Assembly (NCBI RefSeq): GCF_020711235.1
Contig: NZ_JAJFAV010000007.1
Span: forward strand, 186,001 to 250,000
Length of the DNA stretch: 64,000 bases
Direction: 5' to 3'
Source of the DNA: Hymenobacter sp. 15J16-1T3B
GTDB taxonomy: Bacteria; Bacteroidota; Bacteroidia; Cytophagales; Hymenobacteraceae
The notes under the pieces are model-generated. The model worked only from the letters and a program-made list of their open reading frames with translations. It ran no database searches and had not been told where the DNA came from. Shown here one piece after another: positions 24,343-63,089 of the stretch; position 1 is the stretch's first letter, and each line of letters opens with the position of its first letter. The position numbers and the translations under genes are program-made.

Positions 24343-24443
24343 GCCGCCCCGCAAGCTGCTGGCTCCCCGTCCTTGCGCGGCAGCCATCCGGCTTCCCCAG
24401 GCCAGCAGCGCGAGGAGGTAGGCCGCCGACGGTAGCACCCGGT

Positions 24444-24681
24444 AGTCCTTGCGAGCAACGCGCGGCACCCGCAGGAAGGCGTAGCCAATCGTTCCGCTAG
24501 TAGCACGACGGTACAAGAAGCACTAACCAAAACCGGACCGCCCGCAACCAACATCTGTGGTTCCGGGCGGTCCGGCTTTTGGGCCGATGTATTCAGGTCG
24601 GTAGGTATTGAGACGGCGGTGCTGCTAGCGAAAGGACTGGCTACGCCTTCCTGCGGTTACCGCGCGTTGCTCGCAATGACT
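24444..24681. repeat. Family A foldback repeat (A1)
   Basis: Outer arms of ~64 bases (AGTCCTTGCGAGCAACGCGC...GTTCCGCTAGTAGCAC and its inverse ending GTTGCTCGCAATGACT) enclose a perfect inner hairpin (CCGGACCGCCCG/CGGGCGGTCCGG, ~24535-24577) followed by CTTTT. A one-sided core TAGGTATTGAGACGGCGGTGC lies before the right arm and is shared with the other two copies. It fills most of the gap between the M16 pair and the Spy-like gene. Confidence 0.85.
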
Positions 24682-24797
24682 AGGGAGTGAACCAATGCTT
24701 TCTGGTCCGGATAATTTTCCATCACCGCGTTAAACTCCCCGACCACTTACGCCTCTATGTGAGCAGAAAACGGTAACTATTTCCTCCTCGCATAAGC

Positions 24798-25739
24798 ATG
24801 AAAACCTCCTCCTGGCTGAAGGTCCTCGCCTTTTCCTGCGCCCTGCTGCCCGCCACGGCTGGCTTCGGCGCCTCTCTCCAACACGGCCCCGGCTTTGAGC
24901 GGCCCGGGCTGGGTGGCCCCGGCCACCACCGCGGCAACGGCGAAGTGCGCGCCTACGTCGAGCAGAACGTGCTGCCGGTGGTGCGGCAGCAGCGCCAGAA
25001 GCTGGAAACCCAGCTTGCCGCCGCCGACCAAGCCCAGCTCGCCACCTACCGCACCCAGCTCAAAGCCCTGCGCGAGCAAGGCAAGGCCCTGCGCGAAACG
25101 CTTAAGCCGGCGGCCGGTGCCACACCCGGCCAGCGCCCGGCCCTCACCGATGCCCAGCGTCAGCAGCTGCAGCAGTTGCACGAGCAGCGCCGCACCATTA
25201 TGCAGGGCGTCGGCCAACTGGCCACCAAGTACGCGGCGCAGATCAACCAGCTGAAAACCGAGGTGCAGCCCCAGCGCGAAAAGTGGGCCACCGATATCAA
25301 AGCACTGGTGCAGAAGCAGCTCACGCCCGAGCAGCAGCAGAACCTGGCGCAGCACCAAGCCCACGGCGGCCCGCGCGGGCACCACGGCCGCGGCGGCCAC
25401 GGCCCGAAGCAGAACTTCTTCGGCGCCACGCGCTTCCTGCTCTTGGACCCGAACGCCTCCGCCCCGGCTACGGCCGTGGAAGCCAGCCGCCCGGCCGCTA
25501 TGTATCCCAACCCCGCCAGCAGCGCCCAGCGCCTGGATTACGAGATAAAAAAGGACGGCAACGTGAAGGTGGAACTGCTCAACGAGCAGGGCAAAACCCT
25601 GCGCACCGTGTTCGACGGCAAGCAGGACAAGGGCAGCCACTCGCTCGACGTGAATCTCGCGGACCTGAACCGCGGCACGTACTACTACAAAATCACGAGC
25701 AAAGGCAGCTCCGAAACCCGCCGCTTCGTGAAGGAGTAA
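24798..25739 (+). CDS. Spy/CpxP-like coiled-coil protein with T9SS sorting domain
   Basis: The 313-residue protein has a signal peptide (ending at GFGAS), then a long helical region (residues ~50-190) rich in Gln, Lys and Ala with LTPEQQQNLAQHQAHGG, which resembles the LTxxQ motif of Spy/CpxP periplasmic chaperones, followed by a Gly/His-rich linker (GPRGHHGRGGHGPK). From ~225 on is a beta domain beginning MYPNPASSAQRLDYEI and ending TSKGSSETRRFVKE, a type A T9SS sorting signal. A Spy-like protein that is routed to the cell surface is unusual. The His-rich linker could bind metal. Function is not known; the T9SS call is firm, the Spy relation moderate. Confidence 0.8.
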   Translation: MKTSSWLKVLAFSCALLPATAGFGASLQHGPGFERPGLGGPGHHRGNGEVRAYVEQNVLPVVRQQRQKLETQLAAADQAQLATYRTQLKALREQGKALRETLKPAAGATPGQRPALTDAQRQQLQQLHEQRRTIMQGVGQLATKYAAQINQLKTEVQPQREKWATDIKALVQKQLTPEQQQNLAQHQAHGGPRGHHGRGGHGPKQNFFGATRFLLLDPNASAPATAVEASRPAAMYPNPASSAQRLDYEIKKDGNVKVELLNEQGKTLRTVFDGKQDKGSHSLDVNLADLNRGTYYYKITSKGSSETRRFVKE

Positions 25740-25745
25740 CGGCCC

Positions 25746-26307
25746 TAAGAGCGTGTTGGGGATTCGTAGAAAGGGACATAATCGGCTGCTATTGAACGTA
25801 GCGGTCAATACGCTCTTTGGGACTATAGCTGATCACACTGTCCCCCTGGAATCTTAACTCCCAGAGTTCATAGTTATAGCCAGGTGGAGGTGGTGGCGGC
25901 GGCCCATCTACCTCTCGTTGGATGGGTGGCTTGCTTCGAGCAGGACGTTTCGTTGGCTGATAAATGTATGGATTGGGTTTGCCAACGAAATAAAGATCGT
26001 ACTTACCAAGGTGCTCGACTCCTAGTAAAACATCTTGTATCTGTGTGGCCATTGCGGTAGTCATTGGTTCGCTATGGATAGAGACTCGCGCTGAATCGAA
26101 ACCGATAATGATGATTGTGTCTGACTTCTGATCTACTTTGTGAGCTTCCATATAGCCTTTTACAAACGGCATGAGGACTGGGCTCACTTTCTCCAGACCA
26201 GCATTTCTATCAGACTGGCAAGCAGACATACCGGCCATTACCAGCAGCTTCCAACACCGAGTTACACGTTCGAGCATGGATAAAGGTAAATCCCCAACAC
26301 GCTCTAA
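25746..26307. mobile_element. Inverted-repeat-bounded mini-element carrying one gene
   Basis: Perfect 16-base inverted repeats GAGCGTGTTGGGGATT (25749-25764) and its inverse (26289-26304) bound 556 bases. Directly outside both ends is the same triplet TAA (25746-25748 and 26305-26307), which looks like a 3-base target duplication of the TNA type known from some IS5-family subgroups. Inside is a single lipoprotein gene of lower GC content than the surroundings and no transposase. It therefore looks like a non-autonomous transposable element with a passenger gene, which would need a transposase encoded elsewhere. Confidence 0.65.
25789..26277 (-). CDS. Small lipoprotein inside the mini-element
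   Basis: A 162-residue protein with a lipoprotein-type N-terminus (KLLVMAGMSACQSD, lipidation at Cys). The mature part includes VSPVLMPFVKGYMEAH, then a conserved-looking IIIIGFDSARVSIHSEP, and a proline run (GPPPPPPPGY) near the C-terminus; the last stretch is WELRFQGDSVISYSP. I do not recognise the family. The gene fills the space between the two inverted repeats almost exactly: its start codon lies 12 bases inside the right repeat and its stop 25 bases inside the left one, so its promoter may lie in or beyond the repeat. It is AT-richer than its neighbours, consistent with import. An in-frame upstream extension runs out of the element and is not favoured. Confidence 0.7.
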   Translation of the reverse strand: MLERVTRCWKLLVMAGMSACQSDRNAGLEKVSPVLMPFVKGYMEAHKVDQKSDTIIIIGFDSARVSIHSEPMTTAMATQIQDVLLGVEHLGKYDLYFVGKPNPYIYQPTKRPARSKPPIQREVDGPPPPPPPGYNYELWELRFQGDSVISYSPKERIDRYVQ

Positions 26308-26556
26308 GTGCCCCAGCCGGCCGGACGTCGGCGCGAGCGGCCAGTTGCTGAGCCTAGTGAAGACCCGCGGTGCCACGACCCCCACGTCGTGGCACCGCTG
26401 CGTTTGGGCCGCGCGTGACCGGTGCCGGAAGTCAGCACTGCGCGGTCGGCCCGCCTGGTCCGGGCTTTACTGGCTTGGTACCACTATTTTTACGGGCCGT
26501 TCGTTAAGCTTCTTCGCAGCCGGTCCCGCGTGGGGGCGGCTGCCCCGCGTTTTGTG

Positions 26557-27165
26557 ATGAAATTCTCCTCTGCTGTGCTGCTCCGGTCCGTGGTTTTTCC
26601 GCTGTTGTGCGCCGCCCTGTTTGCCGGCTGCTGCGGCTCGGTGTCGTGCAATTGCCAGAACTACCGCGCCGACGCGCTGCTGTTCAACTTCAAGCCCGGC
26701 TCCTTTACCGCGGCCCAGCTCGATACGGTGCTGCTGGTGCGCTCGGTGTACCCGCGCGACACGTCTACCACCACCGCCACTGGCATCACGTACGCCAAGG
26801 GCGACACGGCCAGCATCGTCCGCGACCGGTCCCTGGTCTTCACCACGCCCATCGTGCTCGACAATGCCGAGCCGTTTGCGGCCGTCAACGGGCGCAAGCT
26901 CGGCGACTCCACAGCCAGCAAATCGTACCGCTACACCATTCTGGTGCGCGAGCCGGCGCGCCGGGGCCGGGTGGTGGCGCGTTATTACATCGGGCGGGTG
27001 CAGCTTCGGGGGCAGTACGAGGCCGATGGCTGCTGCAGCTGTTACCGCAACGAGTCCAAGCAATTTACCCTCAGCTCCTTCGCCAATGGCACCCGCCGCG
27101 ATACGCTCGTCGACGCGCACACGCCCCCCGGCACCGAGCCGCGGGTAACTATTCTGCGGCGCTAG
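26557..27165 (+). CDS. Cysteine-rich putative lipoprotein of unknown function
   Basis: The 202-residue protein has a lipoprotein signal (LCAALFAGCCGS), then a cysteine cluster (CCGSVSCNCQNY) right at the mature N-terminus and a second one in the middle of the chain (DGCCSCYRNES). The body looks like beta strands (SYRYTILVREPARRGRVVARYY). The two Cys clusters might form disulfides or bind a metal; I cannot tell. I do not recognise the family. An in-frame extension upstream has no protein character; the start is set by the signal. It faces away from the mini-element gene and precedes the 779-residue orphan on the same strand. Confidence 0.75.
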   Translation: MKFSSAVLLRSVVFPLLCAALFAGCCGSVSCNCQNYRADALLFNFKPGSFTAAQLDTVLLVRSVYPRDTSTTTATGITYAKGDTASIVRDRSLVFTTPIVLDNAEPFAAVNGRKLGDSTASKSYRYTILVREPARRGRVVARYYIGRVQLRGQYEADGCCSCYRNESKQFTLSSFANGTRRDTLVDAHTPPGTEPRVTILRR

Positions 27166-32266: not shown

Positions 32267-32485
32267 CCCGTCATCCTCATCTGGCGTACGCCTAAGCGAA
32301 GGACCTTCCTCTCACCCTGCACCGCCGCTGCCGAAGCAGTGCCGACGCTTTCGTACTGGCGGCGAAACGCCGAAGCGCAGCCATCAAGCCGGTGTAGCAG
32401 GGCGTTGGTGACTGCGCTTCGTGGCTGGTGCGGGATTGGAGAAAGGTCCTTCGGCTGCGCCGTACGCCAGATGGAGGACGACGGG
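32267..32485. repeat. Family B foldback repeat (B2)
   Basis: Arms CCCGTCATCCTCATCTGGCG...AAGCGAAGGACCTT and the inverse AAGGTCCTTCGG...CAGATGGAGGACGACGGG enclose an inner GAAGCGCAGCCA/TGACTGCGCTTC pair and a CCCTGCACCGCCGC-type segment. It differs from B3 and B4 by an insertion (CTGGCGTACGCC) in the arms. Short open frames across it are not genes. Confidence 0.8.
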
Positions 32486-57469: not shown

Positions 57470-57506
57470 CGGCTTTGTGGCGGAGTGGATGAGCAGATGA
57501 GTAAAA

Positions 57507-57701
57507 CAGCCCGTCATCCGGAGCGCAGCGAAGGACCTTCTTCGTGCCCCGCACCAACCGAGAAGCGCAGCCCCCAACGGCCTTCATATTGGTCGTGGTG
57601 GCTGCGCTTCGCCTTTAGGGCTGGTTAGCGTCTGCTCGTTGGCATTAGGGGATATGCAAGGTGCCAACAAGGTCCTTCGCTGCGCTCCGGATGACGGGCT
57701 G
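57507..57701. repeat. Family B foldback repeat (B3)
   Basis: The 33-base arms CAGCCCGTCATCCGGAGCGC...GAAGGACCTT (57507-57539) and their inverse (57669-57701) match perfectly. Between them lie CCCCGCACC, GAAGCGCAGCCC paired with GTGGCTGCGCTTC. It fills the gap between two convergent genes. Confidence 0.88.
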
Positions 57702-57729
57702 ATTGGTTCGTCCAATTGCTGCCCGCCCG

Positions 57730-62900: not shown

Positions 62901-63089
62901 CCCGACAGCCATCCTGAGCGCAGCGAAGGACCTTCCTCCTACCCCGCACCGCCGCGGCTTACGCAGAGCCAAGCCCAAACGCCCCGCTCGACAGGATAGC
63001 AAAAAGAAGCGCAGCCACCAGATCGGTGGCTGCGCTTCTTTTTAACGGGGCTGAAGGAAGATCCTTCCCGCTGCTCAGGATGACGGGGC
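62901..63089. repeat. Family B foldback repeat (B4)
   Basis: Arms CAGCCATCCTGAGCGCAGCG and inverse CTGCTCAGGATGACGGGG, with inner GAAGCGCAGCCACCAG/ CGGTGGCTGCGCTTC hairpin followed by TTTTT and CCCCGCACCGCCGC. It closes the DUF2461 and kinase genes that converge on it. Confidence 0.87.

Follow-up and report, generated by a model that had tools for sequence, protein, structure and literature searches.

A putative mobile insertion cassette with IS5-family ends and a single lipoprotein-like gene in Hymenobacter

Mobile insertion cassettes (MICs) are described as inverted repeats without a transposase, usually accompanied by a target duplication (PMC3913671; PMC3129680), and the IS231A transposase is reported to mobilise one of them, MIC231A1, in trans (PMC3913671). 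Many members of one insertion sequence (IS) subgroup, which by the papers cited in that source is IS231, are reported to carry putative passenger genes between the left end and the transposase gene and are called 'modular' (PMC2266710). The transporter ISs (tISs), which carry passenger genes unrelated to transposition (PMC3129680; PMC9330008), were reported later than the modular IS231 elements (PMC3129680). The IS1031 subgroup, as exemplified by ISLrh, has a length of 857 bp, 17-bp ends starting with GAACCTGT and a 3-bp TNA duplication, and the section on ISLrh mentions no cargo (PMC12016507).

The locus described here was found in a window of 64,000 nucleotides, the whole stretch of DNA analysed, from Hymenobacter sp. 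15J16-1T3B. With a probability of about 0.86, it is a MIC that has IS5-family (IS1031-like) ends, carries a single host-derived gene and was most likely moved in trans. It resembles MIC231, mic-qnrD and mic-qnrS2, as these are described, in having a gene without a role in transposition between inverted repeats, no transposase and a duplicated target (PMC3913671). These MICs belong to other IS types or have ends without a known transposase, whereas the present cassette, which was presumably also moved in trans, combines IS5/IS1031-like ends with a TNA target and a Bacteroidota host. Its closest precedent is IS231/MIC231 of Bacillus cereus. No description of an IS5-family case of such a cargo and cassette system was recognised in the open-access literature searched. 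The features of the locus are as follows.

24798-25739, plus strand: left neighbour gene, 313 aa, adjoining the right neighbour in seven of seven congeners
25746-25748, no strand: left copy of the target-site duplication, TAA; TNA duplications also flank the relatives of the element
25749-25764, plus strand: left terminal inverted repeat, GAGCGTGTTGGGGATT; the same end occurs in relatives
25789-26277, minus strand: cargo gene, 162 aa, lipoprotein-like, with an MSAC|Q lipobox-like site and no Pfam family
26289-26304, minus strand: right terminal inverted repeat, the exact inverse of the left (direct match)
26305-26307, no strand: right copy of the target-site duplication, TAA (direct match)
26557-27165, plus strand: right neighbour gene, adjoining the left neighbour in seven of seven congeners

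Direct matching confirmed the original prediction that perfect 16-base inverted repeats (0 mismatches) bound 556 bases (25749-26304), with TAA on each side. They enclose one gene only, which runs on the minus strand from a start at 26277 to a stop at 25789. The gene fits the element as tightly as had been claimed, with a small correction to the distances: 11 bases separate the start codon from the right repeat and 24 separate the stop from the left repeat, instead of 12 and 25. The next longest ORFs within the cassette are 58 and 47 aa; the long ORF matched no transposase family, and there is no transposase gene inside. Inspection by eye revealed no convincing cargo promoter near the right repeat. 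The gene had also been described as AT-richer than its surroundings, and the GC content of the cassette is indeed 48.6%, compared with 64.2% for the whole window and 65.0% for the 2-kb flanks on each side. Only 2.1% of 556-bp windows are equally AT-rich.

The cassette shows properties of a MIC in its inverted repeats, the lack of a transposase gene, the TAA/TAA duplication and the IS-matching ends. Identity as a MITE was rejected because MITEs have no coding capacity and the cassette encodes an intact protein of 162 aa with homologues in six other genomes. A tIS possesses its own transposase in addition to the passenger, and here the transposase is absent. A composite transposon was rejected as well, since inspection by eye found no transposase ORF on either side in 22-30 kb and the two ends pair with each other. 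The view that the locus is a non-autonomous element whose sole cargo is a lipoprotein-like gene is supported. Two points need correction: elements of this sort are known by name, as mobile insertion cassettes, and the cargo of the relatives is often not a lipoprotein.

The cassette is an insertion between two conserved neighbour genes, as judged from the adjacency of these genes without the element in all seven congeneric genomes (G001-G007), where their aligned parts are 107-239 bases apart. Neither the cargo gene nor the repeats were found between them in any of the seven. The site is thus unoccupied, as had been anticipated for close strains, and its spacer is too diverged to reveal the exact single TAA that was also anticipated. 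A gene at the same place without the repeats, named beforehand as evidence against mobility, is absent, there being no homologue at the site in the seven congeners. A second copy of the cassette was not found by a DNA search of 197 genomes, which returned its own genome only. The start codon of the right neighbour is probably the ATG at 26557, which is in frame within an ORF that opens at 26422. The C-terminus of the left neighbour resembles a type IX secretion sorting domain.

The cassette shares its ends with an IS5-family, IS1031-like insertion sequence that is present in Hymenobacter relatives. At no more than one mismatch, GAGCGTGTTGGGGATT occurs in six of eight genomes of the genus, the own genome included. 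TNA precedes 25 of the 28 places examined in other genomes (exceptions L016, L024 and L030), and at 16 of the 28 a contig edge is no more than about 130 bases away, which fits collapsed multicopy elements. The original prediction had proposed a search for a transposase gene between identical ends, and in relatives paired ends that equal or nearly equal those of the cassette do enclose IS5-family transposases (NF033580; DUF4096 and DDE_Tnp_1) with TNA duplications. The NF033580 scores for the transposases of two relatives are 187.3 and 179.8 bits (cut-off 110), and the transposase of one relative, when used as the query, had matches in 33 of 204 family genomes at E <=1e-60. Most of the delimited IS copies are plain, with lengths of 854-880 bp and flanks that are mostly TAA or TTA, and at many of them, but not at every one, the left and right TNA flanks agree. 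In size, ends and TNA duplication these plain relatives match the IS1031 subgroup as ISLrh represents it (PMC12016507), while the cassette differs in having no transposase.

No other copies of GAGCGTGTTGGGGATT were found in the own genome at one mismatch or fewer. Taken literally, this is the outcome that had been named in advance as refuting the element; it counts for little, since congeners have these ends in multiple copies. At two mismatches there are four further places, versus three for a reversed-pattern control. One of the four marks an end of a MITE (L003 1366-1516, G000:C11) that is 151 bp long, has TTA/TTA flanks and departs from GAGCGTGTTGGGGATT by 2 bases at one end and 3 at the other. 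Other Hymenobacteraceae genomes also contain elements of 151-152 bp whose ends are related (L243, L245, L246, L247 and L259). A cognate transposase was not detected in the own genome with either of two queries: the first gave no matches at E 1e-3, in a search without a positive control, and the second, which matched 33 other genomes, gave none at 1e-60. The own assembly consists of 42 contigs, and a collapsed transposase copy may be missing from it.

Within the window, GAGCGTGTTGGGGATT at up to three mismatches occurs at two places, which are both ends of the cassette, versus 0.59 expected, and 12 of 100 shuffles also reach two places. In 40 first-order Markov simulations of the window, in which perfect 16-bp inverted repeats within 1500 bp were counted, a mean of 0.1 positions per window had such a repeat and none had matching 3-nt flanks. 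The real window contains other perfect 16-bp inverted repeats, with arm starts that are all 212 bases or less apart. The status as a transposon is better argued from the presence of the same end around transposons in related genomes than from chance counts.

A scan of named genomes (47 loci), together with further stretches, yielded nine candidate elements with both a transposase and cargo, eight of them firm and one doubtful, in six named genomes.

L164 (also L104), Solirubrum puertoriconensis: 1504 bp, cargo of 204 aa, exported-looking
L167, Solirubrum puertoriconensis: 1378 bp, cargo of 142 aa
L169 (also L109), Hymenobacter sp. CRA2: 1332 bp, cargo of 141 aa, lipoprotein-like by eye
L170 (also L111), Hymenobacter sp. 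CRA2: 1199 bp, cargo of 100 aa with three membrane-like segments
L171 (also L112), H. jeollabukensis: 1411 bp, cargo of 172 aa
L165 (L165/L105), H. jeollabukensis, doubtful: 1264 bp, cargo of 101 aa, membrane-like
L172, H. gummosus: 1279 bp, cargo of 89 aa, Cys_rich_CPCC
L189 (also L148), H. sediminis: 1383 bp, cargo of 129 aa, lipoprotein-like; transposase gene disrupted
L166, H. psychrotolerans: 1401 bp, cargo of 152 aa, membrane-like

The cargo is located to the left of the transposase gene in six of these elements and to the right in three (L165-L167). The GC content of the cargo regions is 43-58%, versus 60-69% for the transposase genes. Eight relatives possess their own transposase plus a passenger, the transposase gene of L189 being disrupted, so the term tIS fits them; the 556-bp cassette, without a transposase, differs. 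The relatives also resemble the modular elements of IS231 (IS4 family, Bacillus cereus group), as those are described, in carrying extra DNA with passenger genes. They differ from IS231 in IS family and phylum, in the right-side cargo of two firm elements and in damaged inner ends that point to end replacement. A second transposase-free cassette, L154, is 498 bp long, with an ORF of 131 aa and unequal flanks (GAA/TAA).

The cargo proteins of the 556-bp cassette, L154 and the nine elements form a set of 11, in which no pair is related at E <0.1. By inspection of hydropathy and lipoboxes (L109 by eye), four are exported or lipoprotein-like, three have membrane-like segments and four have neither; a leaning to envelope proteins is not established by this tally because it has no background rate. 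Among the ten cargoes of relatives, only that of L172 passed the Pfam cut-off (Cys_rich_CPCC). Anti-phage defence was rejected as the nature of the cargo, with no PADLOC matches among the six of 11 proteins queried. Among 204 genomes, the L109 cargo has a homologue in one other, a broken fragment of 44 residues, and the L104 cargo has homologues in two others; paired IS-type ends were found at none of these places. The L166 element is also present on the 137-kb plasmid NZ_CP043646.1 of Hymenobacter sp. NBH84 (L268 2918-4318). On the plasmid, a DUF4236 gene contains the element in its 3' part and encodes, as annotated, a protein that ends in IS-encoded residues; the left flank is the same as in H. 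psychrotolerans.

In eight of the nine elements with transposase and cargo, the 3-nt flanks are equal at the outer ends, and this target duplication indicates that the cargo moved with the unit. The exception is L165, where the left flank CTA equals the CTA at the inner end and the outer right flank is TAA, which makes it doubtful that the gene on its right is cargo. Solirubrum puertoriconensis has, on another contig, a second L104 unit (L107) that has decayed and shows 83% identity to the first across both cargo and transposase. In L170 and L172 (2 mismatches each) and in L166 (3 mismatches), the inner end that was bypassed can still be seen clearly, though damaged. Weak remnants with 6 mismatches occur at the expected place in L171, L189 and L167, a level also met at wrong places in L169 and L189, and none was seen on the cargo side of L164 and L169. 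The damaged end of L172 is followed by TGAGTAGGGCGT, as are the undamaged ends at three contig edges of CRA2. From the damaged inner ends and this shared TGAGTAGGGCGT, it follows that some elements at least have exchanged their original end for an outer one.

A maximum-likelihood tree was constructed from 40 distinct transposases (loci from L104 onwards, each represented by a single HSP covering 220 or more query residues, with identical rows merged). Broken or split transposases were kept outside the tree (L148/L189, the second copy L107, L155/L196, L192, L193, L204 and others), and cargo labels were set by hand, the doubtful L165/L105 being labelled as cargo. All eight cargo-labelled rows fall in one clade of ten (support 96/95). 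The other 30 rows all lack the label; 27 of these 30 are delimited at 854-880 bp (all but L146, L153 and L259). The label requires three changes on the tree, which was reached by none of 500 shuffles. CRA2 shows three of each end at contig edges. Plain copies within the clade that are almost identical collapse at such edges, which leads to an overestimate of the share of insertions with cargo.

The protein encoded by the cassette has homologues in six other genomes of 204, all from one related genus (g5), with 27-58% identity and no paired ends near them. A separate scan of the named genomes and a search of the plasmid collection each returned no relatives of the protein, Pfam gave no match, and the one NCBIfam match was below the cut-off. 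In an alignment of the cassette protein with five homologous places from four genomes, Cys20 of the lipobox-like MSAC|Q is invariant in all six sequences. MSAC fits the loosened lipobox pattern only, and the hydrophobic stretch is weak (1.55). A single-sequence structure model was uninformative (mean pLDDT 38.6). Comparison with the nearest homologue gave a pN of 0.25 and a pS of 0.75, with dS saturated; this ratio mostly reflects time outside the element. The cargo is probably a captured chromosomal gene of the kind represented by these homologues.

We infer mobilisation of the cassette in trans by a transposase that would come from a related, complete insertion sequence, present in this lineage today or in the past, with insertion at a TAA target between the two neighbour genes. 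Cargo uptake would begin with the use of an end-like sequence on the far side of a neighbouring gene instead of the end that the element has there; this inner end, now bypassed, would decay, and the neighbouring gene would travel with the element. End replacement may be the general route of cargo uptake, and the 556-bp cassette would be the transposase-free form of an element family of Hymenobacter and relatives, one transposase clade of which has exchangeable single-gene cargo.

Two origins can be considered for the cassette itself. The first, which has close to even odds, is direct capture, in which a host lipoprotein gene happened to lie between two pre-existing solo or MITE ends that then acted as a single transposon. 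Several genomes of the family contain solo ends of this type and MITEs, roughly 80-180 bp long, that have them; one such MITE is in the own genome, and the gene family is chromosomal in the six other genomes without paired ends nearby. Moreover, the outer left end of L148/L189 in H. sediminis leads into GTCATGCTGAGC, which follows four of eight solo ends inspected, and this favours recruitment of a nearby pre-existing end. Direct capture is harder to reconcile with the very tight fit of the gene and with the sequence inside both repeats; beyond the 16 bp, the cassette ends are unlike any IS, MITE or solo ends seen.

The second origin, possible and somewhat more doubtful, is deletion of the transposase gene from a cargo-bearing IS. 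The position and orientation of the cargo relative to the left end are as in L104, L109 and L111, and the stop codon is 15-30 bases from the outer repeat in those elements and 24 in the cassette. L241 and L242 might illustrate such losses, since each has a right end and a short transposase remnant beside exported-looking genes, but a second end was undetected in both. Furthermore, the right end of the cassette retains neither a transposase remnant nor IS subterminal sequence, and the gene lies 11 bases from the repeat. L241 1-1085 and L242 1-2183 are themselves solo right ends with a C-terminal transposase remnant and are possible relics of cargo-bearing copies. That the repeats formed by chance around an ordinary resident gene was rejected as very improbable, for although the GC-rich window has other inverted repeats and the own genome no other exact end copy, congeners have this very repeat as a transposon end, the TAA flanks match as in no simulation, and the site lacks both gene and repeat in seven of seven congeners.

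Whichever way the cassette arose, its reading as a MIC places it beside a modular lineage of single-gene carrier ISs whose IS family and phylum are not those of IS231/MIC231. The preserved intermediates, with damaged inner ends behind new outer ends, suggest the route by which cargo was taken up. A broader proposal can be made tentatively and is less likely than not: that one IS1031-like transposase lineage of the Hymenobacteraceae is a general system for single-gene capture by outer-end switching and inner-end decay, leans to AT-rich genes for envelope proteins, and yields transposase-free cassettes, the present one among them, by which these genes spread on plasmids and from one species to another. 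Because it looks like a lone small gene, a cassette of this kind can easily be overlooked, and part of the pool of small accessory genes in environmental Bacteroidota may be mobile by such means.

Two other repeated families are present in the window. A palindromic intergenic repeat at 24425-24693, with inverted arms near 24449-24488 and 24639-24676, recurs as numerous partial copies, in particular in the own genome and in three congeners (G001, G003 and G006). The second family is also intergenic, has 39-bp inverted arms of the CCGTCATCCGGAGCGCAGCGAAGGACCTT type and is found at 57504-57704 and partly at 32371-32460 and 62910-62950.
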